Shown: positions 2,977 to 21,880 of the stretch, piece by piece
Layout of the letters: every line of letters starts with the position of its first letter
How positions within the stretch are numbered: position 1 is the stretch's first letter
DNA from: a virus
DNA length: 23,663 nucleotides
Strand: one strand, 5' to 3'
IMG/VR virus record: IMGVR_UViG_3300044727_000029
Coordinates: 1-23,663 of that record
The notes under the pieces: generated by a model
The model's input: the letters and a program-made list of their open reading frames with translations, nothing else
The model's database searches: none
Told to the model about the DNA's origin: nothing
Translations under genes and position numbers: made by a program

Positions 2977-4583
2977 TCGGCGATCGCGCCCATTCCGACG
3001 GCGCCCATCAGCGCGTACATCGGGATTTCACCTTTGATGATCCCGCGCCGCAGTATCTCATCCTTCGGCATGCCGGTAAGGCGGTGCGTGCGCTCGATGC
3101 TCTCGTTGATCGTCTGGATGAACGGCTGTCCCGCCGTGTAGGACGGGTCCTTCATGTTCTTGAAGCCGGACCAGCCGACGTCCTGATAATTCTGCGGACG
3201 CACGCCGACCTTGGCGGCCTCCTCGCCGAGCACCTTCTCGTACAGGCCGTAGGTCCCCGGCGGCGGCATCATGACCTTGGGCGTCATGCCCGACGTCATC
3301 TGCTCGTCCATCGTCGCCGCGCCGCGGTTGCCGGTGAAATTCTGCGAGAAGTTGTGCCGCTTCGGGTTGGCCGCGCCGAGCGCGGAGAAGCCGCCCTCGT
3401 CGAATATCTTCTTGTGCATCGCCATGTTGCCGGAGGCGTAGCGTCCGCCGATCGGGAACGGCATCTGGTGCGCGGCCTCGGGGTACGGCTTGCCGGTGGC
3501 GCGCAGGTAGTTGCCGTAGTGCGCCATCATCCAGTTCGAGGTAGGATCGGCGCCGCCGGTCGTGGCCGCCATGCTGGTCGCGATGCGATCCTGAAACGCC
3601 TTGCGCCCGGCCTGCGGCCCCAGCTCCTTGATGAACTCGTCCTCCAGCTGCTTCATCGCGTACCAGTCGGCCGTGTTCGGGAGTTGCGTACCGCGCTCGA
3701 ACGCGGCGCGCAGGCGCGTGCGTGCCTCCTCGCTGCCGATGTTCTCCATGTGCTTGTCGATCGTCGCCTGCTTCTTCGGGACGATCGTTGTCGTGTCCAC
3801 GTTCGGCGGGTAGTTGGCCGGATCGACGTGCTGGCGCTGCGCGACGTCGAAGTACGGCTGGTAGCCGTTCTTCGCCATGTCGTCCGATATTCGCTTGCGC
3901 TCCTTCTGGAAGGCTACGGCCTCGGGCGTCAGCTCCTTCGACCAGAACTCCTTCTTGGTCTTGGGGTCGATCGCCAGCACCGGAGGCCCGACCGGCGGGT
4001 ACTCCTCGGCGTACTGGCCGAAGCGCGCCGCGACCGGCGGGTTGTTGTGCCCGATGCCCGGCGGCGTCCAGTTGGTCACATCCGCCACGCCGCCCATCAC
4101 GGCCTTGCCGCGCGGCACGCGCGGACGACCCGCGGCCTCGGCGGTGTCGGAGCCGAGCACGGCACCAGCCGCCGCGGGGATGGCCTTGCGTCCGATCCTA
4201 ACCGGGTTGAACAGCGTGCTCGCGCCGAGCACGTCGTCGGGCGCGAGCATGTCGCCGGCCATGTCGGCCATCTTCATGCCGCCGACCACCGGGCGGATGT
4301 CGGCCGGACCCTGCTGGCCGGCCAGCCCGCGCGCCACGTCGGCTGAACGCTGCACCGCCTGCTGCTGCCTCTCGTCGCGGTGCTGCGCCTGCTGGGCGCG
4401 GTCGTAGGCGTCGAACGGCGCGTAGGTGGTCGGGCTGTACTGGTCGGTATGGGCCAAATGGCCCATTTGAAATGCATCGGCGACGGAGGGCTGGTCGGGC
4501 CAGCGGCTGTCGACCGAATAGTTCGGCGTGTCGACCGGGCGGTCGAGGTAGGACAGGCCGAACGGGTTGTAGCGGTCGCTCAT
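2955..4583 (-). CDS. 542-residue virion-type protein, possibly an internal or ejected protein
   Basis: The start at 4583 is fixed by ATGA overlap with the upstream gene and by the sequence MSDRYNPFGLSYLDRP. I do not recognise a named family with confidence. Residues 1-100 are Asp/Gln-rich and hydrophilic, with a DRAQQAQHRDERQQQ helix. A hydrophobic Ala/Gly segment follows (about 133-150). Residues 176-183 read GIGHNNPP, echoing IGHNQP in the protein at the left edge. A long globular region (about 200-510) includes a Trp/Tyr/Asn-rich stretch, NWMMAHYGNYLRATGKPYPE. The C-terminus is a Gly/Ala/Met hydrophobic segment ending IADQSRYPK, strikingly like the tail of the ART protein next door. Position and composition suggest an internal virion protein delivered with the DNA. 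That is inference. Confidence 0.75.
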   Translation of the reverse strand: MSDRYNPFGLSYLDRPVDTPNYSVDSRWPDQPSVADAFQMGHLAHTDQYSPTTYAPFDAYDRAQQAQHRDERQQQAVQRSADVARGLAGQQGPADIRPVVGGMKMADMAGDMLAPDDVLGASTLFNPVRIGRKAIPAAAGAVLGSDTAEAAGRPRVPRGKAVMGGVADVTNWTPPGIGHNNPPVAARFGQYAEEYPPVGPPVLAIDPKTKKEFWSKELTPEAVAFQKERKRISDDMAKNGYQPYFDVAQRQHVDPANYPPNVDTTTIVPKKQATIDKHMENIGSEEARTRLRAAFERGTQLPNTADWYAMKQLEDEFIKELGPQAGRKAFQDRIATSMAATTGGADPTSNWMMAHYGNYLRATGKPYPEAAHQMPFPIGGRYASGNMAMHKKIFDEGGFSALGAANPKRHNFSQNFTGNRGAATMDEQMTSGMTPKVMMPPPGTYGLYEKVLGEEAAKVGVRPQNYQDVGWSGFKNMKDPSYTAGQPFIQTINESIERTHRLTGMPKDEILRRGIIKGEIPMYALMGAVGMGAIADQSRYPK

Positions 4584-5548
4584 GGCCGCGCTCCGTATGT
4601 GCTCTGGTCGATCGTGCCGCCCATCGCGCCGGCGCCGAGCACGCCGCCGGTGGCGCCGATCACGCCGTACTTCGCCATGATGTCGAGCTTGGAGGGGTCG
4701 AAGGCGACGTAGTTGTAGGTCTGCGGCTTCTGCAAGTCGCCGACAATCGAGCGCCACCAGTCAGCATACGGCGATACCTGCTGTTCCTTCAGCGCCGCCG
4801 CCAGCGCCGCTTCGCGCGAGCCGTGCTGGCCTATCATCCGCTTCGCTTCGGCATCGTACATGCGCGAGCCCTCATCGAGATAGCGAATGCCGGGGATGCC
4901 TGCCTCGTCGCGAAACACGTTGCTCGCGCGCGGCTTGTCTTCAATCGCGGCGATGCCGCGGTACGCCTCCTCGCCGGTCATCTTCTCGGGCGAGCCGAAC
5001 AGCCACTTCTTGGCGACATTCCATGCTGCCGGACCCGCAGGCTGCTGCGCGAGCGGCTTGTCCCAGTCGAGCAGCTCCTCAGGCTTGGCCCTGAAGTTCA
5101 CCTCGTAGGTGCGCGGGCCGATCTGCTTGCCGCTTTGTATCATGTCGATGGCTGCGGTGAATTTGTCGAACATCGGGCCTTGCTTGTACGCCGCTGCCAT
5201 CTCCTGCAATGATTTCAAGGTCGCGTTGGGATCGAAACCGTGCTGCTGCAAGCGATCCGCCGCCATCTGCTCGACGTTACGCTGCCACGTCTCATTATGC
5301 GGCACGAAGTCGCCGAACCGCTTGTCGTAGAAGTTTTTCCAGTATTGCCCGCCTTGCCCAGACACGGCCGGATTTTCCGCCGCGTAGATGCCGTGGCCGT
5401 AGACCTGCGCGCCCTCGCCCGTGCCGATCTTGGCGAGGTCGAACTTGTCGAAGTCATGCGGGCTGGAGTGGTAGACGTGGATGCCGGTCGGCGTCGGGCC
5501 GCCGACCTTGCCCGCGAGCACCGCCGCGATCTTGTCGCGCCAGCTCAT
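4580..5548 (-). CDS. ART-PolyVal-type ADP-ribosyltransferase-like virion protein
   Basis: This 322-residue protein starts MSWRDKIAAVLAG; the ATG at 5548 has GGAG 9 bases upstream and shares one base with the preceding stop (TGATG). The domain is recognisable as the ADP-ribosyltransferase fold found in phage polyvalent proteins. It shows VYHSSPHDFDKFDL (residues 25-38), then GEGAQVYGHGIYAAENP (44-60), YEVNFRAKPEELLDWDKPL (148-166), GIPGIRYLDEGSR (217-229) and NYVAFDPSKLDI (279-290). Relatives modify proteins with ADP-ribose from NAD+ and are thought to be injected with phage DNA to reprogramme or disarm the host. The His of HSSP and the GHGIYAAE block fit the NAD-binding motifs; catalysis is unproven. 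The C-terminal 30 residues are Gly/Ala hydrophobic and end TIDQSTYGARP. Confidence 0.85.
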   Translation of the reverse strand: MSWRDKIAAVLAGKVGGPTPTGIHVYHSSPHDFDKFDLAKIGTGEGAQVYGHGIYAAENPAVSGQGGQYWKNFYDKRFGDFVPHNETWQRNVEQMAADRLQQHGFDPNATLKSLQEMAAAYKQGPMFDKFTAAIDMIQSGKQIGPRTYEVNFRAKPEELLDWDKPLAQQPAGPAAWNVAKKWLFGSPEKMTGEEAYRGIAAIEDKPRASNVFRDEAGIPGIRYLDEGSRMYDAEAKRMIGQHGSREAALAAALKEQQVSPYADWWRSIVGDLQKPQTYNYVAFDPSKLDIMAKYGVIGATGGVLGAGAMGGTIDQSTYGARP

Positions 5549-5640
5549 CAGAACGCTCCCACCGCCCAGAACACCAGCACCAGACACAGCACCGCGAGCC
5601 CGACCAGCGTGTACATCGCGATGCGGTCGCCGGCGATCAC
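5548..5640 (-). CDS. 30-residue single-span membrane peptide
   Basis: A GTG start at 5640, two bases from the previous stop, is preceded by GGAGG 7 bases upstream, the best ribosome-binding site in this stretch. The product is about 30 residues: a short polar head (IAGDRIAMYT) followed by an uninterrupted hydrophobic span of roughly 18 residues (LVGLAVLCLVLVFWAVGAF). The stop overlaps the next ATG as TGATG, so translation is coupled. Tiny one-helix proteins of this kind are frequent in phage late operons; some are holins or spanin helpers, but nothing here assigns that role. The strong ribosome-binding site and both tight junctions support a real gene despite its size. Confidence 0.7.
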   Translation of the reverse strand: MIAGDRIAMYTLVGLAVLCLVLVFWAVGAF

Positions 5641-5641
5641 G

Positions 5642-6658
5642 TCACAGCCTCCCCGGAATGTAGGCGCGCCGCCCGAAGTTCAGGACACCCGGCGGCGGGA
5701 TCAGCGGTGCGCCGCGGTCGACCTCCAGCTCGGCAACGCTGGTCGTCACAATGATCGCGAGCGGCGACGCGGTCAAAACAATATCGCCGGCGGGCGGCGC
5801 CGCGGTGACGATCAGGTCGGCTGAATTGCAATGAATTGCAATTGGCAGCGTCGCGGCGATCAGGACGTAGGCGTCCTGCGTGATCGCGACGCGCAGGTCC
5901 GCGGTCTTGGGCGTAACGGTGACGCCGAGCGGCGTGCCGGTCAGGACGAAGGCGTCCGAGATCACCGTGACGCGCAGGTCGGCGGTCTTGAAGCTGGCGG
6001 TGACGCCGAGCGTCGTGGCGACGATCTGGTTGCCGCTCGACTTGACCAGATTGGCGGTCTTGAAGCTGACCGTGACCGGCAGCTTGGCGGACGTCAGCCG
6101 CCACGCCGAGCGCAGGGTGGCGGTCTTCGGCGCGACGGTGACTGACAGCTTGGAAGATGTCAGCCGCCGCCCGGCTGACAACGTGGCGGTCTTGGGGCTG
6201 ACAGTGACTGACAGCTTGGCGGATGTCAGCCGCCGCCCGAGCAGCAGCGCGGCGGTCTTGGGCGTGACGGTGACCGGCAGCGGCGTGCCGGCTACCCGAC
6301 GGCCGGAGCCAACCGACGAGGTCTTGAACGCGACCGTGACCGGCAGAGCCGAGCCGGTGAGGATGTAGTTGCGGCGGATCTTCAGGTCGGCGGTCTTGGG
6401 CGTAACGGTGACGCCGAGCGTGGTCGCGGTCAGGCGGAAGTCGCGGTGCGCCGAGAGGCTGGCGGTCTTGAAGCTGACCGTGACGCCAAGCGTCGAGCCG
6501 GTGAGCCGGTAGTTGCGCTGGACCTTGAGGTTGGCGGTCTGCAGCGTGACGGTGACTGCGAGCGTCGCGGTGGTCTGCCCGAGCTGGCCGTCCCAGTGCG
6601 CCGCGTCCCACTTGCCGCGGTCCCATCGTTCCGGGACGACTGGCTTGACGAAGGACAT
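5642..6658 (-). CDS. Twelve-repeat beta-rich virion protein
   Basis: The 338-residue product has three parts. A 27-residue head (MSFVKPVVPERWDRGKWDAA and following) is Trp-rich. About twelve tandem units of 22-29 residues follow (residues 28-316), each of the type LT-x3-L-x-VTV-x2-KTA-x-L, often followed by a basic RR or RN pair. A 22-residue Pro-rich tail ends the protein. The alternating VTV and KTA-x-L strands suggest a beta-solenoid or repeated beta-hairpin rod. I do not recognise a family. Such repeat rods in phage structural operons are usually fibres, head spikes or surface adhesins. Spacing to the upstream gene is 9 bases and the ribosome-binding site is weak. No catalytic motif is seen. 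The start MSFVKP is preferred to an out-of-frame ATG just upstream. Confidence 0.8.
   Translation of the reverse strand: MSFVKPVVPERWDRGKWDAAHWDGQLGQTTATLAVTVTLQTANLKVQRNYRLTGSTLGVTVSFKTASLSAHRDFRLTATTLGVTVTPKTADLKIRRNYILTGSALPVTVAFKTSSVGSGRRVAGTPLPVTVTPKTAALLLGRRLTSAKLSVTVSPKTATLSAGRRLTSSKLSVTVAPKTATLRSAWRLTSAKLPVTVSFKTANLVKSSGNQIVATTLGVTASFKTADLRVTVISDAFVLTGTPLGVTVTPKTADLRVAITQDAYVLIAATLPIAIHCNSADLIVTAAPPAGDIVLTASPLAIIVTTSVAELEVDRGAPLIPPPGVLNFGRRAYIPGRL
5711..6577 (-). repeat. Coding tandem repeat array, 12 units of 66-87 bp
   Basis: The units encode the LT-x3-L-x-VTV-x2-KTA-x-L repeat of the 338-residue protein. The central units (about 6060-6260) are shortest, exactly 22 codons, and most alike. 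The 15-base block TGACTGACAGCTTGG, for example, recurs at 6139 and 6205, 66 bases apart, and is followed in both copies by near-identical sequence. Outer units are longer and more diverged, as expected if the array has grown from the middle by recombination. Confidence 0.85.
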
Positions 6659-7102: not shown

Positions 7103-9505
7103 TCACACTCCCGGTCTGGTCGGCGGATTGCTCATCTTGAATTGCTGCATGGCGCGGCGCTCGCCCTGCTTCGCCAGCATGTCCTGCTGCTTGATCTGCG
7201 ACGCCTGCTTCTGCAGGTCGATCTTGGCGGCGTTGGCCTGCAGGTCGGCCTGCTTCTTGACCATGTCGGCCTGATGCTTCTCGCGGTCGGCCATCATCTT
7301 GAGCTGGGTCTGCTGCGCCTTCTCCTCGCCGTCGCCCTGCTTGGCGCGCAGGTCGGCCAGCTTCATCTTCTCGTTGGACGCGATCTTCATCTGCTCGTGC
7401 TTGTCGCGCATCGCCATCTCGGCCTGCTTGAGCTGGGCGTCCTGCGCGTCCTTCTGCTGGGCGTGGCCCAGCTTCATCGCCTCGATCTCCTTGGCGGTGT
7501 TGGCCTGTATCGTGGTCGGGTCCGGCCCCTTGGGCGCCTCGGCCTTGGTCTGCATCAGCTCGACGAGGTCGTCGATCGCGCCGTCGAGGCTGCGCCCGGC
7601 GCGGTAGGGGGCGGTTGCGAACTTTAAGACCTCGCCGCAGAAGCCGGCGGTCTGCGGCTCGATCATGATCATCTGGGTGAGCTGGGGCAGGAGCTGCGCG
7701 AGCACCGCGACGAACTCGGCGCGGCGCTGCTTCTCCGAGTTCTCGTCGAGCTGGATGGTACTGTCGCTCTCGATGTCGAGGGTGAAGGACTTGGTGCGGC
7801 TGTCGCGGAACAGCTCCATGACCTGATCGAAGGTCGGCGCCTCGATGATCTTCTTGAGCGCCTTGTGGCCTTCGGCAACGACAGCCTCGGCCTGCGCCAG
7901 CATCGCCTGCGGATCACCGCCGGGCGGCTGGCCGGGCGCGGGCGATCCGCCCGGCGACGCGGCTGGCGGGCCGCCGGGCGGCGCTCCCGGAGCGGTCGGA
8001 CCGCCGGGTGGGGGTCCACCGGGAGGGGGTTGCTGCTGGGAGAGCATCTGGCGAGCCATGGCGAGCATCTGCTGTTGCTGCTGCAGCTGCTGGGACAGCT
8101 CGCGCGCCTGCTTCTCCTGCATCTTCGTCGTCGGCAATTGCGTCTGGCTCATCGCGATGATGGTCAGCTCGTCGAAATTCTCGGTGATGATCTCGGCCGT
8201 GATGTTGACGAGGTCGCGCGCGATGCGGACCAGCTCCTCCTGCTTGTCCTTGATGCGGCTGGAGCCGTACTGCGTCTTGAGTTCCTGCGCGCCGAGCGTC
8301 TCGCGCGCGTCGGTGGCGCCGCGCATGATGTCGCTCAGGCCCATGATCTGGTAGATGTCCTGAATGATCTGCTGGCGCAGCGTGACGCACTGCTGGATGG
8401 TCGCCGCGATCTCCTGAATAGGCAGCCAGATGATCACCTCCTTGGAGCCGCCGAAGGCGGCCCAGTTGGAGATCGGGACCAGCATGCGGCCGGGCGTGTT
8501 GGTGGTGATGGCGGCCTGAATGGCCTCGGACAGCTCGGCGCCGCCGGCCGGGTAGAAGCCCTTCGCCTCCAGCGCGCTGGAGAGCGCGTGGATCTTGGCG
8601 GTCAGGGTGTCGATCTCGTCGAGCTGGTCCTCGTACTGCAGCGCGTCCGGGACGGGCACGAGGCTGCCGCGCTGCAGCGTCCCATACGCCGGCTTCGGAC
8701 ACGGAAAGAAGTCGACGCAGTCGAGGTGCGGGTCGGCCTCGTCGAGCACGTCCTCGCAGCCCTCGGCGACCCAGACCACGCGGCGCTCGGTCTTGTCCCA
8801 GATCTCCCAGAACTTGGCGCGCTCGCGCGCATCCGCGCCGCCGATCTCCTTGACGTCGCGGTCGACCTTGTAGTCGGCCTCCTTGTAGCTGTCGCCGCTG
8901 GTGGCGTGGAACCGCTCGCGCGCCTGCGCGCGGGTGAGGTAGCTCGCCGCGGCGACCCACGTCACCTCGAACCAGTTGCGCGCCACGGTGTGGAGGAAGT
9001 CGCGGCGGTGCTTGAAGTCGACGCAGACGCACTCGTAGTCGTGGCTTTTGTCCTTCTCCTCGTAGCGGCACCACGCCACGCCGCGGCCGTAGAGCGCGAC
9101 GTCGTTGCGCACGAGCAGCATCAGGTCGTTGATGTGGCAGAGGTCGAAGGACGCGGTGACGCACCGCTCCAGAACCTCGCTGGCGGCCTGCGGCACCGGC
9201 CGGCGGTCCTTCCACTTCGGCGTGACGACGGGCTGCGGCGGCTTGGCGTAGATGGAGGGGCCGATGACCTCGATGTTGGCCCAGAGCATCTGGAACTCGC
9301 GGTCGCGGCTGGCATTGCTCAGGCGGTCGATGTTGGCATAGCGCCTGTCGATCTTGTCGCAGTGGTCGTTCCAGTCGTCGAACGCCTTCTCGCTCTCGCG
9401 CAGCAGGTTGAGCCACGCATCGGCCTTGTCGGGTTCGAGCCTGACGTCGAACTCCAGATCGTCGTGGCGGACGTCGTCGTCTGCAGGTGCGGGTGCGTCA
9501 ACCAT
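7103..9505 (-). CDS. Portal protein (P22-like head-tail connector)
   Basis: The 800-residue product would form the dodecameric ring at one capsid vertex through which DNA is packaged and ejected. The N-terminal helical region includes FQMLWANIEVIGPSIYAKPP (residues 71-90), a familiar pattern in podovirus-type portals, followed by QPVVTPKWKDR and a stem/wing region to about 460. The QLQQQQQ block lies near residues 465-480. It is followed by an unusually Pro/Gly-rich linker (about 485-530), then a basic, Gln/Lys/Met-rich coiled coil (about 680-795), as in the barrel extension of long portals. The start is clear: AAGGAG 7 bases before the ATG, which lies 8 bases inside the upstream gene. The large terminase lies upstream, separated by two small genes. 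Confidence 0.9.
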   Translation of the reverse strand: MVDAPAPADDDVRHDDLEFDVRLEPDKADAWLNLLRESEKAFDDWNDHCDKIDRRYANIDRLSNASRDREFQMLWANIEVIGPSIYAKPPQPVVTPKWKDRRPVPQAASEVLERCVTASFDLCHINDLMLLVRNDVALYGRGVAWCRYEEKDKSHDYECVCVDFKHRRDFLHTVARNWFEVTWVAAASYLTRAQARERFHATSGDSYKEADYKVDRDVKEIGGADARERAKFWEIWDKTERRVVWVAEGCEDVLDEADPHLDCVDFFPCPKPAYGTLQRGSLVPVPDALQYEDQLDEIDTLTAKIHALSSALEAKGFYPAGGAELSEAIQAAITTNTPGRMLVPISNWAAFGGSKEVIIWLPIQEIAATIQQCVTLRQQIIQDIYQIMGLSDIMRGATDARETLGAQELKTQYGSSRIKDKQEELVRIARDLVNITAEIITENFDELTIIAMSQTQLPTTKMQEKQARELSQQLQQQQQMLAMARQMLSQQQPPPGGPPPGGPTAPGAPPGGPPAASPGGSPAPGQPPGGDPQAMLAQAEAVVAEGHKALKKIIEAPTFDQVMELFRDSRTKSFTLDIESDSTIQLDENSEKQRRAEFVAVLAQLLPQLTQMIMIEPQTAGFCGEVLKFATAPYRAGRSLDGAIDDLVELMQTKAEAPKGPDPTTIQANTAKEIEAMKLGHAQQKDAQDAQLKQAEMAMRDKHEQMKIASNEKMKLADLRAKQGDGEEKAQQTQLKMMADREKHQADMVKKQADLQANAAKIDLQKQASQIKQQDMLAKQGERRAMQQFKMSNPPTRPGV

Positions 9506-9899: not shown

Positions 9900-10171
9900 G
9901 GCGCGCGCCAGTCGCCATTGCGCACGGCCGGCCCGGTGCGGCGCCACTCCTGATAGCGCTTGTAGGCGGGGCTGGCCTCGAACAGCGCGCGCTCGTGCGC
10001 CGTCACCGCGTCGGCGCAGCGGTCGAGCGCGTCGAGGTCGACCACGTCCTGCGCGCGCTGCTCGCGCAGCTTCTCGCGGGCGGTGGCGAGCTGCCAGCGG
10101 GTGTCGGCGAGCTGCGCGCGCAGGTCGCGGATGACCGCTGACAGGCTCGGCTTGGTCTTGCGCTTCTTCAC
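9896..10171 (-). CDS. Coiled-coil protein between terminase and portal genes
   Basis: The 91-residue basic, helical product starts MKKRKTKPSLSAVIRDLRAQ. Heptad-like hydrophobic spacing runs through LRAQLADTRWQLATAREKLRE (written here in parts), and there is a Trp-rich C-terminus (YKRYQEWRRTG). Its ATG overlaps the terminase stop (10168-10171) and its stop overlaps the next ATG, so it is translationally coupled on both sides. No family is recognised. Location suggests a packaging accessory or head-assembly factor; nothing in the sequence decides this. Confidence 0.7.
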   Translation of the reverse strand: MKKRKTKPSLSAVIRDLRAQLADTRWQLATAREKLREQRAQDVVDLDALDRCADAVTAHERALFEASPAYKRYQEWRRTGPAVRNGDWRAP

Positions 10172-11541
10172 AGCATGGCCCTCCGTTTCGGTTCGGGCGG
10201 CGGCGGGATGATCCAGCCGCTGAAGGCGGGGTTGGGCGGCGCTTTTATCTTACGGATGGGAGCGCGGCGCCACGCCATGCTCAGGTAGCGGAAGGCGTCG
10301 CTCGGGTGGCTCGTCCAGTCGTGGACGGCGTTGGCCCGGAACGCTTTCTTGTCGTCGTCCCATTCGCGGCGGTACTGCTCCAAGGCGTCGAGCCCTCCGG
10401 TCTCAGTGCGGGGGTGAAACACGCAGAGGGGGAGAGTGCGGCGCACCGCATTGATGCCGTCGTCAAGGCTGTGATGGGGCACGAGCAGCGGACGGAGCCC
10501 CATGCCGGACATCGTCTCAACTCGGGTTCGTCCGCTGCCCCATTCCTTGATCTTGGCATCATGAGGAACATAGTCGTCACCGTGTTTCCAGCCATGGTCG
10601 CGCGCCTTGCTTTCGATCACGCCGGCGTAGTGCTCCAGACCGACGCCGCTCGCCGCGTAGTGGTCGAGGATGGCGATCTGCGCGCCGCGCGGCTGGAACC
10701 ACCAGATCGAGGTGTCGTCGCCGACGCCGAGGTCCCACGCGCGGTGGACCGGCTCGCCGGCGATCGCGTTGACCGGCGCGACGCGGCCCTCGTCGCGCAC
10801 GTCCTTCATCTCGCGGGCGTAGAAGGCGCCCAAGATGGCGGCGTGCCAGTCGCAGAGGTACTCCTGCCGGAACTGGGCCTCGCCGACGTCCGCGCCGTAG
10901 AGGGCTTGGTACTCGGCGAGCGCCTCTTCGAGCTGCAGGGTGGAGAGAGTGCCGGTGTCGACCGCGGTCAGCCGCTCGCAGAACCAGCCCGGCGTCTTGG
11001 AGGCATGGCCGAACATGGCGTGGGCGTGGTTCCTTCCTCTTGGCGTGGTGATGAACGCGGCCCAGCCGTTGTTCTCCTCGACGATCGGCCGGTGGTAGGC
11101 CCACGCGGAGGGGTTTGCCAATGCCCACTCAGAGTAGGTAACCCCCGCAACACCCGAGCCAACAGTCGCGTCAAAGCGGTCGGAGCCGATGAGCTGCCAT
11201 GTCGAGCCATTTTTGAACCTGATGAACATCTCGTGGTCGTTGGTATTGGCGCGCATCGCCTCGGGGAACGCCTCGTCGATCCGCCGGCGCCCGCTGTGCG
11301 GGTTGACGGCGGTCCAGATCGCCTTGCGGGCCTGCCCGTATTCCGGCAGGCAGTGCCAGTAATTTCCGACACGTTTCCAAGCACTTACCGCGGAGTGGTG
11401 GAGGCAGATCTCGTCCTTGCCCGCCCTCCTGTGCCACACCGCCATGGCGCGCTTGCCGCCGTCCTGCAGGTAAGTCCACAGCGCGGCCTGATGCCGCCGC
11501 GGCCACCAGTCGCCGTGCGGCAGGTCGACCTCGATCGCCAC
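10168..11541 (-). CDS. terL: Terminase large subunit (packaging ATPase-nuclease)
   Basis: This 457-residue protein drives DNA into the prohead and cuts concatemers. The ATPase part shows a phage-type Walker A, WHRRAGKDE (residues 36-44), Walker B VTYSEW (134-139) with the catalytic Glu, and the coupling motif TTPRG (165-169). The C-terminal RNase H-like nuclease shows D270 in HRAWDLGVGDD, D328 in YVPHDAK and the terminal acidic block DWTSHPSDAFRYL (408-420). The HRRAGKD form of Walker A is usual in the terminases of P22- and T7-like relatives. The start is GTG at 11541, four bases from the preceding stop, with GGAG 9 bases upstream; there is no ATG alternative that keeps the N-terminal DLPHGDWWPRRHQ adenine-binding region. 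Confidence 0.93.
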   Translation of the reverse strand: MAIEVDLPHGDWWPRRHQAALWTYLQDGGKRAMAVWHRRAGKDEICLHHSAVSAWKRVGNYWHCLPEYGQARKAIWTAVNPHSGRRRIDEAFPEAMRANTNDHEMFIRFKNGSTWQLIGSDRFDATVGSGVAGVTYSEWALANPSAWAYHRPIVEENNGWAAFITTPRGRNHAHAMFGHASKTPGWFCERLTAVDTGTLSTLQLEEALAEYQALYGADVGEAQFRQEYLCDWHAAILGAFYAREMKDVRDEGRVAPVNAIAGEPVHRAWDLGVGDDTSIWWFQPRGAQIAILDHYAASGVGLEHYAGVIESKARDHGWKHGDDYVPHDAKIKEWGSGRTRVETMSGMGLRPLLVPHHSLDDGINAVRRTLPLCVFHPRTETGGLDALEQYRREWDDDKKAFRANAVHDWTSHPSDAFRYLSMAWRRAPIRKIKAPPNPAFSGWIIPPPPEPKRRAML

Positions 11542-11544
11542 GGC

Positions 11545-11964
11545 TCAGGCTCCGCAGGCGGGCGCCGCGCCGGTCACAGGCTGGGGGCGTATGGCGGCGC
11601 GGCGCCCTACGGCGACCGTCTCGGCGAGGAGCTGGCCGCCGATTTTAGTGTGTGGTTTACGGGCCGGATTAGCTGACCAGCTAAATGGGTTATCAGGGTT
11701 TTTAGTGGGATGATTAGGGATGATTACGGGCGGGCGTATGACAGTTGGCCGCGCACCTTCAAGATCACCGATGGTACCATTTACGATCGATTGGGGGTGG
11801 GGATTAGCCAGCCCTTGCGACAGGTACTGGCTAATCCCCTGACCATTACGCACGACGCTACGCACACCATTAAGCCTAATCATGACCGACGGATTAGTAA
11901 TCCGCTGTTTATCGCTGCGAGAGTAGGACAACTTGCACTCATGTCGCATCGTTGTCGCGTCCAT
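11545..11964 (-). CDS. Doubtful 139-codon frame in the lower-GC pre-terminase segment
   Basis: An uninterrupted frame links the candidate small terminase (overlap 26 bases) to the large terminase (gap of three bases), as expected for a gene in this tight operon. Against it, the sequence is markedly lower in GC than its neighbours and its codons favour A/T at the third position. The predicted protein has no recognisable pattern beyond recurring NP pairs, which merely translate the GGATTA repeats, and the ribosome-binding site is poor. The segment may instead be non-coding DNA with packaging or regulatory sites. I list it so that the 400-base gap is explained, not because the protein is well supported. 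Confidence 0.25.
   Translation of the reverse strand: MDATTMRHECKLSYSRSDKQRITNPSVMIRLNGVRSVVRNGQGISQYLSQGLANPHPQSIVNGTIGDLEGARPTVIRPPVIIPNHPTKNPDNPFSWSANPARKPHTKIGGQLLAETVAVGRRAAIRPQPVTGAAPACGA
11666..11903. repeat. Cluster of GGATTA palindromes and direct repeats before the large terminase
   Basis: Within 240 bases lie three perfect inverted repeats. TTAGCTG/CAGCTAA spans 11669-11684 with a 2-base spacer. GGGGATTAGCCAG/CTGGCTAATCCCC (13 bp) spans 11799-11839 with a 15-base loop. GGATTA/TAATCC spans 11891-11903 with a 1-base spacer. A tandem GGGATGATTA pair lies at 11707-11726. GGATTA occurs at 11666, 11801 and 11891, and TAATCC at 11832 and 11898. Position beside the terminase genes suggests a pac or cos site or small-terminase binding region; a replication origin or attenuator is also possible. 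Confidence 0.7.
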
Positions 11965-12232
11965 TATTCTCGATCGTGAGTGGAGGTGCGAGCGCAGCCT
12001 GCACGATATGTCTAATAGTCACGCGGATGTCACCCTCGCCGTCCTCGCCAGTGTGCGTCTGCGGCGGCCGGCCCCAGCCGCGGTCGAGCAGCGCAATCGC
12101 CGCGGCGACGCGCGCTGCCTCCTGCTTGCCGTTGCGCGCCACGCCGGCGAGCGTCTGGATTGCCTCCAGCGCATGCGCACGAGCATAGCTTCGGATTTCG
12201 GTAGGCGCTCTAGCCACTTGCCTCCGGGTCAC
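11939..12232 (-). CDS. Candidate terminase small subunit or terminase-adjacent accessory protein
   Basis: The 97-residue product starts with GTG at 12232, overlapping the upstream stop by four bases (GTGA), with GAGGA five bases upstream. An N-terminal helical part, TEIRSYARAHALEAIQTLAG, is followed by AARVAAAIALLDRGWGRPPQ. The pattern A-x2-HT/AL-x-AI-x-TL ... AA-x-ALLDRGWG(R/K)PPQ is common in short proteins encoded just upstream of large terminases in phages of alphaproteobacteria. It resembles the helical half of small terminases. I see no classic helix-turn-helix. DNA recognition for packaging is therefore inferred from position and recalled pattern. Confidence 0.6.
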   Translation of the reverse strand: MTRRQVARAPTEIRSYARAHALEAIQTLAGVARNGKQEAARVAAAIALLDRGWGRPPQTHTGEDGEGDIRVTIRHIVQAALAPPLTIENNGRDNDAT

Positions 12233-12489
12233 CCCGTCCTCTGTTCCAGCCGCTTCACCCGCTCGCCCACGCCCACGATTGCGAGGCCGACATCACCGAT
12301 CGCGTCGTTGTCCCGCGTTCGCTGCTGCTCCAGCTCCGTCACCCGGTCGGCCAGCTTCAGCACGCTTGACCCGAGCGCCGCGATGACGTCGAGCAACCGG
12401 CGCTGCATCGCCTCCAGATCGGCGATCGCGACCTGCCTCTCCTTGGCGATCTCGTGGTCGACGAAGCTGATCACCTTCATGCCGGCCAT
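12229..12489 (-). CDS. Coiled-coil protein of unknown function
   Basis: This 86-residue product starts MAGMKVISFVDHEIAKE. The start at 12489 is preferred because an upstream in-frame ATG would add a stretch (MTPEPDRRILRSYPQG) that collides with the neighbouring gene and lacks a better ribosome-binding site; AGGG lies 8 bases before the chosen ATG. Residues 12-60 are a continuous heptad-like helix with MQRRLLDVIAALGSSVLKLA and VTELEQQ, and a second helix follows (IVGVGERVKRLEQ). It could oligomerise. Its stop is coupled to the candidate small terminase. Confidence 0.65.
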   Translation of the reverse strand: MAGMKVISFVDHEIAKERQVAIADLEAMQRRLLDVIAALGSSVLKLADRVTELEQQRTRDNDAIGDVGLAIVGVGERVKRLEQRTG

Positions 12490-12499
12490 GCGTGCACCC

Positions 12500-12508
12500 T
12501 GTGGATAA
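12500..12508 (-). other. Exact DnaA-box match
   Basis: The minus strand reads TTATCCACA, identical to the bacterial DnaA-box consensus. It lies 11 bases upstream of the coiled-coil gene start. It is a single copy, and one exact match in a window of this size is within reach of chance, so it is recorded without claiming an origin. Confidence 0.3.
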
Positions 12509-12526
12509 CTCCGCAGGATGCGGCGA

Positions 12527-12796
12527 TCAGGCTCTGGCGTCAAGTTGCCCGGGTAGTCGAGGCGCTGTCCGATGCCGCGGCCCGAGCCGCAGATGCAGCA
12601 TCAGCCGCAGCAGCTTGACTGCACTGGCTGGCACCTCGGCCTCGCCCGCGACGTAGCGCCGGCTGGTGCGATCGCTCACGCCAAGGAAGCGCGCGCCGCT
12701 GCTCTGGTTCAGCCCGAGCGCCGCCAGCAGGCGCTCATACTCGGCCGGGCTGATCGCCGCGACCTTGCGCCAGTCGGCGTAGTTCTGGTTTGCCAT
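12527..12796 (-). CDS. Small helix-turn-helix transcriptional regulator
   Basis: The protein has 89 residues. The start at 12796 has GGAG 7 bases upstream; an upstream in-frame ATG adds only a short non-conserved leader. Residues 17-35 (SPAEYERLLAALGLNQSSG) and 36-51 (ARFLGVSDRTSRRYVAG) form a lambda-repressor/XRE-type helix-turn-helix: helix 2 contains the Q-x2-GARFLGV turn, and helix 3 is the RTSRRY recognition helix. VPASAVKLLRLML follows as a third-domain helix. This LGLSQ-x2-AA-x-LGV-x-x-RT-x-RRW/Y form is typical of small phage regulators. It is the first gene of the leftward operon and lies just inside the divergent promoter pair, so it probably regulates one or both promoters. Confidence 0.8.
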   Translation of the reverse strand: MANQNYADWRKVAAISPAEYERLLAALGLNQSSGARFLGVSDRTSRRYVAGEAEVPASAVKLLRLMLHLRLGPRHRTAPRLPGQLDARA

Positions 12797-12821
12797 GTCA
12801 GCTCCATTTGATGCTGGCACC

Positions 12822-12850
12822 ACGATATGCACTTTTTTGCACTAGGTCAA
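12822..12850 (-). promoter_or_regulatory. Leftward promoter of the HTH/late operon, with a GTGCA direct repeat
   Basis: On the minus strand TTGACC (12850-12845) and TATCGT (12827-12822) are spaced exactly 17 bases. Between them the sequence reads GTGCA-AAAAA-GTGCA, two direct GTGCA copies one helical turn apart and so on one DNA face, a likely operator. The start point would be near 12815, giving an untranslated leader of about 20 bases before the regulator's ATG with GGAG in it. Box fit and geometry are good; activity is untested. Confidence 0.6.
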
Positions 12851-14538: not shown

Positions 14539-16767
14539 TCAGCTACCGCTTAGGCTACGCCAATACCCCCGTGTAACCTCGCCGCCGATCCGAAAGCGCC
14601 CACGGGTCCACCCGAGCGCCCGCATCGCATTCGCCAGCCGCTTGGTGTGCTGGTCATGCAGCATGTGCGTCGGCAGGCCGATAATGGTGTCGAAGATCGC
14701 CTTCACCGACACCCGCAGCTCGTCGTCGGCCACCTGCACGATGCCGACCACGCGCGCCACGCCCGCCAGTGGACCCGCGTTCGTGGCCACCACCTTCAAT
14801 CCCGCCTCCAGCGCGTCCTCCCACGGGTCGCGCACGCGCCGCTCGTCCTGCTCGGCGCCGACCGCTTCCCACAAGTCGGGATCGAGCGTCAGCACCTCGC
14901 CGCCCGACTGCCGCGCCGCCGCCTCGCCCCACAGCTGCAGGCGCACCGCCCGCAGCGCGCCAAGGTCGATCGGGCGTCCTACCTTGATTGGCCAGAACCG
15001 CCGGTTGCCGGTCTGTGACTGCAGGTATTCCCGGCCGTTGGTCGTGCCGACCTCGATCGAGTGCCGCGGCTGCTCGACAAGGAAGTGCCCGTAGGCCGGC
15101 CGCGCCCGGTCAACCTGTCGGCTGGCGAACGCCTTGACCGTCTCCACCTCCGCCTTGCGCATCCCGGCCAGCTCGGCGTTTTCATGTATCCACACCCCGG
15201 CGAGCTGCTCCTGCACTTCGCGCGACGCCTTGCCGATGATGCTCTCGTCCGAGAAATTCTCCGCCCCGGCCAGCACCAGCCACGCCGAACTCTTGTTCCA
15301 GCCCTCCGGCGCCTCCAGCACCGTGATGTTGTCGAACTTGATCCCCGGCCGCCGCGCGCGGGCGACCGCCGCGATCATGGTCTTGGCCACGCACTGCGCA
15401 TTGACCCGCGTGTCCGCCGCGTTGAAGTGCTCGACCGCCATGCGGTCGAGGCGCGCGACACCGTCCCAGTTCGCCTCCGCCTCCGCCAGCATGTCGGTCA
15501 CCGGGTTGAACGCATTCTCGCCCGCCAGCGCGACCACGGCGTCCCTGACATGCTTCTCGGTGAAGTCCAGCCCGAACGCATTCGACAGCGCCGTGCGCAG
15601 CGCCATCACCACCCGATCCGTGACTTCGCCGCAGCACGGCGGCAGAGGCGATCGCGTCGAGCCGAGCAGCATCTTGTTATGAAAGACATCTAACGAGCAG
15701 ACGAACCTGAGCGCCGTGATCGCCAGCCGCGCGTTGTGCAGCGACGCCTTCGGATAGGCTCCGCTCGCCGTGCGCTCGCGCCAGTTGGGAATATCCGGCG
15801 CGACTTCGACGTGGTGCAGCTCGGCGACCGCTGCCAGCCGCTCCGCGAACCCTTCCGGCACGTGCGTCGGCGCCGCGCTCTTCGGGCAGTGCCACGTCGC
15901 CTCTTCGTTGTCGAACACGCCGACGCAGCGCGCGACGTGGCAATCCCCGACCCGGCACTTGGTGCGGTTGTGGCTGCCGTCGATGAACGAGCCCGACACC
16001 CGCAGCTCGCTGTTCGCGCCGGCCATGGCGCACAGCGTGTCGTAGTCGATCTGGTCCGGCCCGTTGTGCACGTCGAACCGCGTCGCGTCGTCGATGTCGT
16101 ACACCACCGGCCCGCTCGCGCCGTCGTGGATCGGCTTCACCGCGACCAGCCCGTGCGCCTCCATGATGGCGTCGCAGGCGTCCATCAGCGGGCTCAGGTC
16201 GGCGCCGGGAAAGGTCGGCAGCTCGGCCGCCTGCGCGTCGAGGATCGTGCGCCCGTGGTATCCATAGTGGCGCTCGACCCCGTCCGTGATGCTGTGCAGG
16301 CCGTGCACGCCGACGTAGCGCCGCGACAGCGTGGTGAACACCTCGACGCGGTGGCCCTTGGCCTCCGGCGTCTTGGGCACCGTTCCGGGGACCACCCAAC
16401 GCCGCGTATTCAGGTAATGTCGCTCGGTCTCGGCGCGCCCGATCAGCGCCAGCTTGGCGGCGCCCGAGTGGCGCCGCAGGCAGCGCGCCATGAAGTCCGG
16501 CCAGCGCGCCGTGAGCATCGCCACGATCTCGTCGACCACCGCCGCGATGCGCACGTCGATGTCGATCACCACCAGCCCGCTGCCGTACATGCGGATGGCC
16601 GCGGCGCGTCCGTTCCACCGCTCGATGTCGTCCGCCTCGTTCGGCATCTTCTGCCAGCCGGTGAACGGGTGTTCCTTGCCCTCCCGCAGTGGTATGACGT
16701 CGAAGCCGTTCGCCTTGATCTTGTGCCACACCGGGCGATAGAGCGTGATCCGCTTGGGTTTCAGCAT
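14539..16767 (-). CDS. VapE/VirE-type primase-helicase, N-terminal prim-pol domain
   Basis: This 742-residue replication protein starts at 16767 with GGAG upstream and overlaps the previous gene by 7 bases. The N-terminus is a bifunctional primase-polymerase: GFDVIPLREGKEHPFTGWQK (21-40), the metal-binding DID in GLVVIDIDV (D69, D71), then HRVEVF and RRYVGVHGLHS. A middle region includes C-rich CRVGDCHVARC. The C-terminal VirE/VapE superfamily 3-like helicase shows a Walker A-like PEGWNKSS near residue 490, the Walker B-like WIHENAELAG near 527, and the family signature GTTNGREYLQSQTGNRRFWP near 575-590. It should prime and unwind phage DNA. The Walker A has Asn where Gly usually precedes the Lys. 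Confidence 0.9.
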   Translation of the reverse strand: MLKPKRITLYRPVWHKIKANGFDVIPLREGKEHPFTGWQKMPNEADDIERWNGRAAAIRMYGSGLVVIDIDVRIAAVVDEIVAMLTARWPDFMARCLRRHSGAAKLALIGRAETERHYLNTRRWVVPGTVPKTPEAKGHRVEVFTTLSRRYVGVHGLHSITDGVERHYGYHGRTILDAQAAELPTFPGADLSPLMDACDAIMEAHGLVAVKPIHDGASGPVVYDIDDATRFDVHNGPDQIDYDTLCAMAGANSELRVSGSFIDGSHNRTKCRVGDCHVARCVGVFDNEEATWHCPKSAAPTHVPEGFAERLAAVAELHHVEVAPDIPNWRERTASGAYPKASLHNARLAITALRFVCSLDVFHNKMLLGSTRSPLPPCCGEVTDRVVMALRTALSNAFGLDFTEKHVRDAVVALAGENAFNPVTDMLAEAEANWDGVARLDRMAVEHFNAADTRVNAQCVAKTMIAAVARARRPGIKFDNITVLEAPEGWNKSSAWLVLAGAENFSDESIIGKASREVQEQLAGVWIHENAELAGMRKAEVETVKAFASRQVDRARPAYGHFLVEQPRHSIEVGTTNGREYLQSQTGNRRFWPIKVGRPIDLGALRAVRLQLWGEAAARQSGGEVLTLDPDLWEAVGAEQDERRVRDPWEDALEAGLKVVATNAGPLAGVARVVGIVQVADDELRVSVKAIFDTIIGLPTHMLHDQHTKRLANAMRALGWTRGRFRIGGEVTRGYWRSLSGS

Positions 16768-17114
16768 GGCTTGCGCTCCGCCTGCATCATCGTTCCCGAC
16801 GGGTTGTCGGTCAGGGGCCGCCACGCCAGCGAGCACAGGCCCTTGTGCTGCTCGATCGTGATTTCGCGCGGGATGCAGCCCATTTCGCAATAGAACTGGA
16901 TCGCGATCCCGTCGCGCCGGGAGCTGGGGTTGCTGGTCTTTCCGACGTTCTGCTGCACCGTCCCGTCCGGGTTTACGCGGGTCTTGGTGACTTTCCCGTC
17001 CTCGCCGTCGCGCGTATATACCGTCACGGCGCCGTGATGCGCCCACATATTCCCGCATTCCGGGCAGCACAGCAGGTATTGATTTTTGAAGTCTAGTTCG
17101 ACATCGTCGAGCAT
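16761..17114 (-). CDS. Zinc-finger protein co-transcribed with the primase-helicase
   Basis: The product has 117 residues, starting MLDDVELDFKNQY at 17114 with AAGGA upstream; a longer in-frame start lacks a ribosome-binding site. Two cysteine knuckles are separated by a beta-rich insert: C17-PE-C20 (in CCPECGNMWAHHG) and C76-EMG-C80, together a likely four-Cys zinc ribbon. Conserved-looking features include VTVYTRDGEDGKV and ITIEQHKG. I recall this C-P-x-C-G ... C-E-x-x-C-x2-...IxQHKG pattern in phage replication clusters of alphaproteobacteria without assigned function. It may bind DNA or the helicase. Its stop lies inside the first codons of the primase-helicase gene. Confidence 0.7.
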   Translation of the reverse strand: MLDDVELDFKNQYLLCCPECGNMWAHHGAVTVYTRDGEDGKVTKTRVNPDGTVQQNVGKTSNPSSRRDGIAIQFYCEMGCIPREITIEQHKGLCSLAWRPLTDNPSGTMMQAERKPC

Positions 17115-17186
17115 TGGTCTGCGTCCTTCTCGCATAAGGTCCAGATCGGGCCGGGGCGCCCTCCAAGCGCCTCGGCCCCTCGTCCG

Positions 17187-17489: not shown

Positions 17490-17534
17490 GCTCGCACCAG
17501 AACATCGTGAATTAAAACTGGCAAGGTGAATTTA
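17490..17534. promoter_or_regulatory. 45-base divergent intergenic region with a GTGAATT direct repeat
   Basis: This short, AT-rich gap must hold the 5' ends of both replication operons unless promoters lie inside the flanking genes. GTGAATT occurs at 17507 and again at 17526, about two helical turns apart. A perfect TTGACA lies at 17464 inside the VRR-NUC gene, but no good -10 box follows at 16-18 bases. AAGG at 17523-17526 serves as ribosome-binding site for the rightward gene. Confidence 0.4.
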
Positions 17535-18797
17535 ATGTCGAAACATTCGGCCATCGTGGGGGGCTCGACCGCGGGCCGCCTGCTCGCCTGCCCCGCCAGC
17601 CTCGCCCGCACCCGCGCGCTGCCGCCCTCCGCCGACGCGCCCTCCGAATACGCCGAGGAGGGCACCTTCGCCCACGAGGTCATGGCGGCCCTGATGGACG
17701 GCCGCCGGCGCGGCGTGCTGCTCGGGAACGACGCGAGCGTCGAAGTCCCCGCCCACGTCGGCTGCCAGTTCCACGACCGCGTGCTGACTAACGATCACCT
17801 CGATACGATGGTGTATCCTGCGCTGGAGCACCTCGACACCTTGGAGCAGGAGTTCGACACCGCCGGCGCCTTCGAGGTGGTCGGCGTCGAGCAGCGCGTC
17901 ATATTTCCGGGAATACCCGGCGCCTTCGGCACCGTCGACCTGATCCTGCAGAACGACCGCTTCACCCTGCTGGTCGACTGGAAGTTCGGGCAGGGCATCG
18001 GCGTCAAATGCGTCTACAGCGACGGGCAGGGCGCGATCGTCAATCCGCAGCTGATGTACTACGCGGCCGCCGCCCTGCGGACCAAGCCGGGCCTGTTCAC
18101 CAAGCGCCGCATCGTCGTCGCCATCATCCAGCCGCGCTCGCTGGAGCCGTTGACATTCACCGAGGTGACCCGTCGCGAGCTGAAGATGTTCGTCGAGGAC
18201 CTGCACAATTCCGTGCTCGCCGCGGTCGACCGCGACCCGCCGCTGCGCAAGGGCGAGCACTGCCGCTTCGCGCCCTGCAAGATCGACTGCCCGCTCTGGA
18301 CCGGCGCCGTGCTTGACCTGACCGCACTGAAGCCGGTCGCGCGAACGACTGCAGTAAAGGGGCCGACGCCCTACGGCGACTATCTCGCCCGCGCCAAGGC
18401 GCTCACCGACACCGTCCTCCAGTTCAAAAATGAGCTGGACGCGCAGATGCACGCCTACCTCGAAAACGGCGGCAGCATCCCCGGCTGGCGGCTGAAGGCC
18501 AAGGCCACCCGGCGCCAGTGGGTCGACGCCGACACCGTCGCCGCCACCTTGGCCGGGATTGGCTTTTCCGCCGACGAGATCTGGCGCGACCCCGAGCTGC
18601 TCACCTTCCAGCAGGCCGAGGCGATCGCCAAGCGCCTCGGCGAGAAGATACCCGACGAGCTGCGCGTGGCGCCGCCGCCGAGCGGCACCACGCTCGCCAC
18701 CACCGACGATCCCGCCCCGGTGGTCGAGCCGGCCGCGCTGGTCGAACGCTTTGCCGCGTCACTGCGGCTTCTGCAGCAACAGCAGGCCGGCAAGTGA
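17535..18797 (+). CDS. DUF2800-type RecB/Cas4-like nuclease
   Basis: The 420-residue protein begins MSKHSAIVGGSTAGRLLACP. It shows the PD-(D/E)XK order of RecB-family nucleases: EGTFAHEV (42-49), GTVDLIL with D135, VDWKFG with D148 and K150, then the Q-x3-Y helix NPQLMYYAA. Cysteines C19, C243, C248 and C252 (in CRFAPCKIDCP) are placed as in the iron-sulphur-cluster nucleases Cas4 and AddB, so an Fe-S cluster is likely. The C-terminal third is helical, with a Pro/Ala linker and a poly-Gln end. DUF2800 proteins sit next to DUF2815 and a polymerase gene in many phages and are thought to process replication or recombination ends. It is the first gene of the rightward operon. Confidence 0.85.
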   Translation: MSKHSAIVGGSTAGRLLACPASLARTRALPPSADAPSEYAEEGTFAHEVMAALMDGRRRGVLLGNDASVEVPAHVGCQFHDRVLTNDHLDTMVYPALEHLDTLEQEFDTAGAFEVVGVEQRVIFPGIPGAFGTVDLILQNDRFTLLVDWKFGQGIGVKCVYSDGQGAIVNPQLMYYAAAALRTKPGLFTKRRIVVAIIQPRSLEPLTFTEVTRRELKMFVEDLHNSVLAAVDRDPPLRKGEHCRFAPCKIDCPLWTGAVLDLTALKPVARTTAVKGPTPYGDYLARAKALTDTVLQFKNELDAQMHAYLENGGSIPGWRLKAKATRRQWVDADTVAATLAGIGFSADEIWRDPELLTFQQAEAIAKRLGEKIPDELRVAPPPSGTTLATTDDPAPVVEPAALVERFAASLRLLQQQQAGK

Positions 18798-19711: not shown

Positions 19712-21880
19712 ATGAACGCCCGCACACAAATGCGTTTCGCACATGCGTCCGAGCGTGCATGGGGGCCGACCTTCGATCCCGCCCGCATCGGCTGGATCGA
19801 CTTCGAGACCCGCGGCCGGGTCGACATCGCGGCCGGCGCCTACCGCTACGCCACCGAGGCCGACGCGGTCGTGCTGTCCTACGCGATCGGCATGGGGCCG
19901 GTGCGCCGCATCGCGGTGCCGCGCTTCCCGGCCACGCTCGACATGGTCGACCTGCCGACCGAGTTCCTCGGCTTTCACGCCAAAGTGATGACCGGGACCG
20001 GCATCTGGGCGGCGTGGAACGCTTCCTTCGACCGCGCCATCTGGAACTACGCCGCCACCGGCTTCCCGCTGCTGGAGCCGCACCAGATCATCGACGTGAT
20101 GGCGCAGGCGGCAGCGTCCGGCCTGCCGCCGGACCTGTCCGCGGCGGCGGTTGCGTCACATTCGGTCACAAAACTGCAGAGCGGTCGCGAGCTGATCCGG
20201 CTGTTCTGCCTGCCCGACAGCACCGGCACGCCGCAGGACAACCCGGTCGAGTGGTCAGCCTTCCTCGACTACGCCGACCGCGACATCGACGCCATGCGCT
20301 CGACCTTCCTCGGCACCCGCCAGCTGCCGCTCGCCGAGTGGCGCGAATACTGGGCGATGGAGGCGATCAACGATCGCGGCGCGGCGATCGACCTGCCGAT
20401 GGTCGAGGCCGCCAGCCGGCTCGCGGCCGAGGACAAGGAGCGCGCCAAGGCCGAGCTGCGCGCCATCACCGGCGATCCCCAGATGACCGTCGACATGGTC
20501 AAGCGCCTGACGGCGTGGCTGCTCGACCGGCTGCCCGAGGAGGGCCGCGCGATCATCACCAAGCGCGACGAGGAGGTCGACGAGGACGGCGTGATCACCA
20601 AGCCGGCCAAGCACGCATTGACGCGGCGTCAGGTCGAGCGGCTGATCGCCTACGTGGGGGCTCTAAACAATACCGGATTAAACGACGCCCTGCGCCTGCT
20701 CCAGATCCGCCTCTACGGTGGTAGCAAGACCCCGGCCAAGTTCGCCAAGATGTTGGCGTCCCACGTCGACGGGGTGCTCTACGGCCAGTACGCGTTCAAC
20801 GGCGCCGCCCAGACCGGCCGGGCGTCGAGCCGCGGCGTGCAGGTGCACAATCTCGCGCGCGACGTGCTGGCGGACGAGCCGGACGCGATCGACAGCCTGA
20901 TCGATGGCTGCGACTACAACTGGCTGGCGCTGAAGCGCCCCGACCCGGTGTCGCGCCAGCTCTCGCTACTGATCCGCCCCGCCTTCGTGCCGGCCGGCGA
21001 CAACGTGTTCGTCTGGAGCGACTGGAGCCAGATCGAGGCGCGCGTGCTGCCGTGGCTGGCCGGCGACGACCCCGGCGCCTTGGCCCGGCTGCAGGTGTTT
21101 CGCGACGTCGACGCCGACCCGACCGTGCCGGACCTCTACACCCGCACCGCCGCGGTGCTCTCGCATCTGCCGGTCGAACAGGTCACCAAGCCGGTGCGCC
21201 AGCGCGGCAAGGTCGCCGAGCTGGCGCTCGGCTTCGGCGGCGGGCTCGGCGCGCTGCAGAGCATGGCGGCCGGCTACGGCCTGCATCTGGACGACGCCGA
21301 GGGCAGGCAGACCGTCGAGGACTGGCGCGCGGCTAATCCGTGGTGCGTCAGGTTCTGGGAGGCGCTGGAGGATGCGGTCGAGCGGGCGATGCGCCTGCCG
21401 GGTCTGGAGCAGCCGGTCGGCCGGCTCAAATACTGCTTCGCGCGCGACTACCTCGGCGGCTCGCTGTTGTGCGAGCTGCCCTCGGGGCGCTTCCTCACCT
21501 ACCGCGAGCTGCGCTGGGAGCCGGTCGAGGAGGAAGGCGACGACGGCAAGCTGCGCACCTCGCGCCAGCTGCGCTTCTCGCGCGGCCACGGCCGCGTCAA
21601 GCTGTGGCGCGGCATGTTGTGCGAGAACGTCGTGCAGGCGGTCGCCGCCGACGTCCTGCGCGGCACATTGCGCCAGCTGAAGGATGAGGGCCACTGCGTG
21701 CGCCTGCACACCCACGACGAGGTCCTGCTGGAATGCGCGCCGGCTGACGCTACGCGCGTCGCATCCGAGTTGCGCCACGTCATGCAGCGCGGCTTTCCGT
21801 GGAGCGAGGGCCTGCCGCTGATGAGCGAGGAGACGCTCGGCTATTACTACACCAAGCACGAGGGGAGCCACGGACTATGA
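19712..21880 (+). CDS. Family A DNA polymerase with 3'-5' exonuclease domain
   Basis: This 722-residue replicative polymerase starts at 19712 with AGGA 8 bases upstream. The proofreading domain shows Exo I WIDFETRG (D30, E32), Exo II WNASFDRAIW (N103, D107) and Exo III YADRD (Y187, D191). In the polymerase domain motif A is WSDWSQIEARVL (catalytic Asp near 436), motif B is RGKVAELALGFGG (near 499) and motif C is HTHDEVLLE (near 666). The O-helix has Phe where Tyr follows the ALG in most relatives (Tyr766 of E. coli PolI), which could affect fidelity or nucleotide choice. There is no 5'-3' exonuclease domain, as usual in phages. It follows the SSB gene and is coupled to the small HTH gene. Confidence 0.93.
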   Translation: MNARTQMRFAHASERAWGPTFDPARIGWIDFETRGRVDIAAGAYRYATEADAVVLSYAIGMGPVRRIAVPRFPATLDMVDLPTEFLGFHAKVMTGTGIWAAWNASFDRAIWNYAATGFPLLEPHQIIDVMAQAAASGLPPDLSAAAVASHSVTKLQSGRELIRLFCLPDSTGTPQDNPVEWSAFLDYADRDIDAMRSTFLGTRQLPLAEWREYWAMEAINDRGAAIDLPMVEAASRLAAEDKERAKAELRAITGDPQMTVDMVKRLTAWLLDRLPEEGRAIITKRDEEVDEDGVITKPAKHALTRRQVERLIAYVGALNNTGLNDALRLLQIRLYGGSKTPAKFAKMLASHVDGVLYGQYAFNGAAQTGRASSRGVQVHNLARDVLADEPDAIDSLIDGCDYNWLALKRPDPVSRQLSLLIRPAFVPAGDNVFVWSDWSQIEARVLPWLAGDDPGALARLQVFRDVDADPTVPDLYTRTAAVLSHLPVEQVTKPVRQRGKVAELALGFGGGLGALQSMAAGYGLHLDDAEGRQTVEDWRAANPWCVRFWEALEDAVERAMRLPGLEQPVGRLKYCFARDYLGGSLLCELPSGRFLTYRELRWEPVEEEGDDGKLRTSRQLRFSRGHGRVKLWRGMLCENVVQAVAADVLRGTLRQLKDEGHCVRLHTHDEVLLECAPADATRVASELRHVMQRGFPWSEGLPLMSEETLGYYYTKHEGSHGL

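Follow-up and report, generated by a model that had tools for sequence, protein, structure and literature searches.

Headful phages P1 and T4 carry their packaging-initiation (pac) sites in or beside the gene for the small terminase subunit, terS (pacA and gene 16, respectively). The same arrangement has been described for P22 (gene 3) and SPP1 (gene 1) (PMC7672466). In PaP3, the oligomerization core of TerS consists of helices α4 and α5 and strand β1, and the helix-turn-helix (HTH) is N-terminal (PMC7672466). Closer to the virus considered here is the podophage ppS10JBj-1, which was predicted from TerL phylogeny to be headful and for which packaging of flanking host DNA was reported (PMC10127595); its TerL is 59% identical.

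The island analyzed here (positions 11640 to 11964 of the window, i.e., of an entire virus record of 23,663 bp) resembles the pac sites of P22, SPP1, P1, and T4 in that it is a terS-linked DNA site occurring once per genome searched, in a phage family with a studied relative predicted to be headful. It differs from them in that the candidate site lies in noncoding DNA after terS and in that the accompanying TerS-like protein has no evident HTH. That protein matches the oligomerization core of PaP3 TerS in sequence, yet the N-terminal HTH through which PaP3 binds cos is not evident here, and a cos site is unsupported. Our best reading of the island is a terS-linked pac site of a headful phage, to which we give not quite an even chance.

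Genomic context of the island

The genes around the island are all read from the minus strand, in the order g101 (12527–12832), g104 (12229–12543), the TerS-like gene (11939–12232), the island, the gene for the large terminase subunit TerL (10168–11541; 457 amino acids; phrog_2, 1.5e-15), and the gene for the portal protein (7103–9505; 800 amino acids; phrog_12082, 5e-180). The 97-amino-acid TerS-like protein matched phrog_15261 (3.8e-9) and phrog_2538 (terminase small subunit; 0.007), and a profile built from 43 TerS homologues matched residues 72–115 of PaP3 TerS (6w7t; E value, 5.7e-4). An earlier, sequence-only reading had placed the island between candidate small and large terminase genes, and these assignments bear it out. 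Because the HTH of 6w7t is N-terminal and the match covers residues 72–115, it is apparently to the core only. The AF2 model of the protein comprised just three helices (residues 13–50; pLDDT, 75), so that neither the profile match nor the model gave evidence of an HTH, and a Foldseek search with the model returned no significant match. A gel shift using the 97-residue protein alone may fail because no HTH is visible.

Repeats of the island

The conspicuous repeats described from the sequence were all found: (i) a perfect 13-bp inverted repeat (GGGGATTAGCCAG at 11799–11811 and CTGGCTAATCCCC at 11827–11839) that makes a hairpin with a 15-nt loop (11799–11839, minus strand) at the upstream edge of the conserved block B described below; (ii) the palindrome CGGATTAGTAATCCG at 11890–11904, with a short minus-strand hairpin around GGATTACTAATCC (11887–11907); (iii) a third palindrome, TTAGCTGACCAGCTAA (11669–11684, plus strand); (iv) a tandem pair of the 10-mer GGGATGATTA (11707–11726, plus strand); and (v) five GGATTA/TAATCC boxes, starting at 11666, 11801, 11832, 11891, and 11898. 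The island is also AT enriched as claimed, with a GC content of 51.7% versus about 68% in the surrounding DNA. The repeats are not chance. With dinucleotide-preserving shuffles of 11640–11964 as the null, 0 of 2,000 shuffles had five boxes and none of 400 had a 13-bp arm (longest arm, 9). The cluster had been said to be without parallel in the late operon; elsewhere in the window, perfect arms (loop up to 20) reach 10 bp at most. The five boxes are not independent, however, because four of them are arms of two palindromes.

These repeats fared less well in the comparison among relatives. From viral contigs, 80 TerL relatives were kept, and apart from the window, L001, L002, L003, and L169 were the only loci found to carry the island itself (together, the five members of clade A). 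The GGATTA boxes, whose conservation in related phages had been suggested as a check, were mostly not kept, nor were the tandem 10-mer (private to the window) or the third palindrome; the short hairpin around GGATTACTAATCC was kept in L001, L003, and L002 and was absent from L169. The idea that the boxes are TerS-binding sites is disfavored because their retention does not track TerS identity: most boxes were lost in L002 and L169, whose TerS proteins are 88% (over 78 residues) and 79% identical to that of the window, whereas several were retained in L001 and L003, with TerS proteins only 68% identical. Judged from the alignments, the conserved part of the island differs from its conspicuous repeats.

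A conserved noncoding core

An open frame of 139 codons runs across the island (11545–11964, minus strand). It was rejected as a gene, as it has indels and no codon signature: differences at the three codon positions numbered 27/28/31 between the window and L003 and 25/25/33 between the window and L001, and the dN/dS ratios of the frame were 0.76 (L003) and 0.63 (L001), versus 0.13 to 0.14 for terL in the same pairs. CTG stands at the start position of the frame in both L001 and L003, and 1-bp indels inside block B break the frame in L002 and L169. An intact coding frame kept in relatives, against which the sequence-only reading had cautioned, was accordingly not found: the frame is open in L001 and L003 without a codon signature and is broken in the other two, and it shows neither codon-position bias nor conservation of frame. 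The island is noncoding.

Within it, block B (11738–11806, minus strand; five genomes) is the conserved noncoding core and the best candidate for a functional site. Its own core, TAATCCCCACCCCCAATCGATCGTAAATGGTACC (11773–11806, minus strand), is near-identical in the alignment of all five clade A members, follows the minus-strand pattern TAATCCCCACCCCCAWTCGATCGTAA[A]WGGTACC, and overlaps the 3' arm of the 13-bp hairpin. Pairwise identities in block B were 74 to 94%, versus 55 to 84% at fourfold sites of terL, and all but 1 of the 10 pairs showed an excess of block B over the fourfold sites (p, 2e-2 to 4e-6); the exception was the closest pair, L001 and L003. Block B is conserved beyond neutral coding sites, i.e., constrained as DNA. 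It lies about 130 to 280 nt after the terS match in clade A.

Block A (11890–11947, minus strand) was conserved in L001, L003, and L002; in L169, a different sequence bearing a hairpin of its own takes its place. The alignment further revealed a direct repeat, GAYGCGACA, present twice 11 bp apart (11942–11961, minus strand); it makes up the last terS codons in the window and falls outside terS in L002. In L002 and L169, a CCCTGCATGCTGG hairpin of 13 to 14 bp sits where the window has the GGGGATTAGCCAG hairpin, and L169 differs in its upstream hairpin. Some clade A members therefore have other sequence in place of block A or of the hairpins. Island profiles gave no convincing second copy in the loci searched; the one copy per genome searched, constrained at the DNA level, is what a pac site calls for.

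Related DNA after terS in the wider family

The gap between terS and terL varied from an overlap to 2.4 kb; among 49 distinct loci, the two genes abut in 14 and are more than 700 nt apart in 12. The gap is also a spot for cargo that differs among relatives, being an HNH endonuclease in some and a polysaccharide lyase or a serine recombinase in others (e.g., L026:3019–3594, L041:3917–4798, and L172:3406–4053). A quick TerL tree grouped clades A, B, and C (the latter two introduced here) together with a few other rows, some of which are truncated upstream of TerL.

Related noncoding DNA downstream of terS is well supported, by profile matches, in sister clade B (L005, L006, L028, L170, and L172). 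For a profile trained on these five alone, the best matches outside the training set were L007 and, at block B, L001, L002, and L169, each of them on the late strand; at block B, shuffled sequences matched as well in 0 of 200 cases for L001 and for L002 and in 1 of 200 for L169. The clade B profile had no match in the window itself or in L003, and it gave no strong match in the gaps of element-free loci.

Clade C (L009, L014, L023, L025, L026, L036, L040, L041, L043, L044, L047, L055, L174, and L176, plus near-copies; about 14 distinct sequences) carries an element of the form GGGGTGG..CCGGGGG..TGTCGGGRTTGAAT..GGTACCGGTACCGG. It is found 48 to 175 nt after terS even though terL is 577 to 2,293 nt away, so that its position follows terS regardless of the distance to terL, as a terS-linked pac site would. 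A relationship between the clade C and clade B elements is suggestive only: L026 and L006 linked the two with 0 of 200 shuffles doing so, and most other sequences gave no match. Clade C loci also encode a small serine recombinase on the opposite strand (L026:618–1238, L044:308–934, L040:2628–3263, and other loci).

A candidate site of packaging initiation

We propose that the island is a cis-acting noncoding DNA element just downstream of terS whose functional heart would be block B and not the GGATTA boxes. Terminase would recognize DNA of the block B region on the replicating concatemer and make the first cut at the element or nearby, and headful packaging would follow; the hairpin next to the core would be a fast-changing companion, its sequence swapped between relatives. 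The sequence-only reading had offered a pac site, a cos site, or a TerS-binding site: what stands of it, as the best reading of a noncoding and conserved stretch, is a pac or otherwise TerS-linked site, while cos is unlikely and a role for the boxes found no support.

Several observations bear on this proposal. The contigs of L002, L003, and the window continue across the island. In a near-full set of 21 genomes (three clade A genomes of 42 to 45 kb and 18 relatives), 9 contigs close into circles with 69- to 127-bp overlaps, and contig breaks are scattered over the set, a pattern that may suggest circular permutation but that assembly can mimic. The 600 nt upstream of TerL held mildly more contig ends than expected (9 versus 4.1; p, 0.016), a weak signal in which near-copies are included. 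For the clade C element, the consensus RNA fold is negligible (−1.7 kcal/mol), which points to recognition as DNA. Counting against a pac site are the failure of the clade B profile to match the window, the small number of matches between clades B and C, and the lack of a visible HTH in TerS. Folding of the late-strand RNA above shuffles in clade A (z, −2.5 to −6) also fits an RNA role. Since terS abuts terL in 14 of 49 relatives, with no such element, the family can package without an element at this place.

A further proposal, that a minimal TerS without a DNA-binding HTH travels with a family-wide packaging-initiation element, with specificity given by the site and its interchangeable hairpins together with TerL or another phage protein, seems to us improbable; it would set these phages apart from the known systems in which TerS has an HTH. 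If the island is a pac site, packaging initiation in this uncultured phage family would be placed in noncoding DNA right after terS, adjoining the gene of a TerS in which no DNA-binding domain is obvious, and block B would be a marker predicting packaging type and transduction in the family. With its 69 bp, block B is a precise target for mapping ends and testing binding.

Alternative readings

T7 has intercistronic RNase III hairpins, and the hairpins of the island likewise lie between late genes that share an operon. An element of the late transcript, in which hairpins of a terS-terL leader RNA undergo RNase III-like processing or modulate the translation of TerL and a protein or the ribosome contacts the conserved block, is nevertheless unlikely, though not negligible. 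In each of the four clade A members examined, the late strand folded better than shuffles (core z, −2.5 to −6.1), and in L001 and L003 it clearly outfolded the opposite strand; L002 and L169 have a different 13- to 14-bp hairpin at the same place, and certain changes in the stems are neutral through G-U pairing on the late strand. Unlike in T7, though, what is conserved here is a linear block, its core TAATCCCC being conserved both inside and outside the hairpin. No Rfam family matched at gathering score, the clade C element has no conserved RNA structure, and terS-terL gaps show no clear enrichment in long inverted repeats (7 in 29.7 kb versus 81 in 498 kb).

A recombination site (attP or res) whose recombinase was lost or replaced in clade A is less probable than the pac reading by a wide measure and must be called doubtful. 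Clade C loci do encode a small serine recombinase, a relative of the L172 PF00239 protein, and the L172 gene immediately adjoins the element within the gap. Near-complete clade A genomes (G001 to G003), by contrast, have no PF00239 or PF00589 protein and hence no cognate recombinase in the same genome, the near-complete clade B genome (G004) gave no match to a recombinase query, and the clade C enzyme is encoded across terS, roughly 0.9 to 2.4 kb from the element. Among 84,980 genomes of bacteria and archaea, none matched the block A pattern.

There is also a small chance that the island is a relic or a neutral insertion without function in a variable terS-terL spot. The variable gap size (overlap to 2.4 kb) and the unrelated cargo, e.g., HNH nuclease and polysaccharide lyase, would suit such an origin; block B, conserved above fourfold sites in 9 of 10 pairs, and the recurrence of related DNA after terS in the sister clade argue against it. 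A cos site with fixed cohesive ends is very unlikely because, even though the island adjoins the terminase genes and one circular contig (L001) breaks inside it, assemblies traverse it in L002, L003, and the window, some contigs circularize, and the TerL relative is predicted to be headful, while the scattered breaks over the 21 near-full genomes, 9 of them circular, speak against cos without excluding it.

Other searches and features of the window

Several other candidates were considered and set aside. ARAGORN found no tRNA or tmRNA in the island, and a 25-nt likeness of 11885–11909 to the tRNA-Arg of phiEco32 (BLAST E = 3; no tRNA model match) was taken as chance, as was a weak match of L002 to a eukaryotic miRNA family in Rfam (E, 0.39). 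As for transcription signals, the island had no sigma-70 promoter-like match, and a search for intrinsic terminators gave one weak terminator-like palindrome (11890–11904), on the opposite strand. The cumulative GC skew of G001 to G003 has its maximum at the island (window positions 11700–12000), but the maximum is weak once the island is masked and is absent in 18 relatives; a skew switch marking a replication end was rejected. Matches to CGATAAACAGCGGATT outside clade A have flanks that do not resemble block A, and phage and plasmid collections searched with the island gave short chance matches or none.

Elsewhere in the window, VTVTPKTADL-like repeats make up a protein encoded at 5642–6658, and a 335-amino-acid protein encoded at 4580–5587 bears a VYHSSPHDFDKFD motif; neither had a Pfam match, and we take the motif of the latter to recall phage ADP-ribosyltransferase-like domains. 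The window also holds a replication module (14539–17166, 17526–18797, 19712–21880, and 22155–23582) comprising a Prim-Pol/VapE-like primase-helicase, a DUF2800 nuclease, a family A DNA polymerase, and an SNF2-type helicase.
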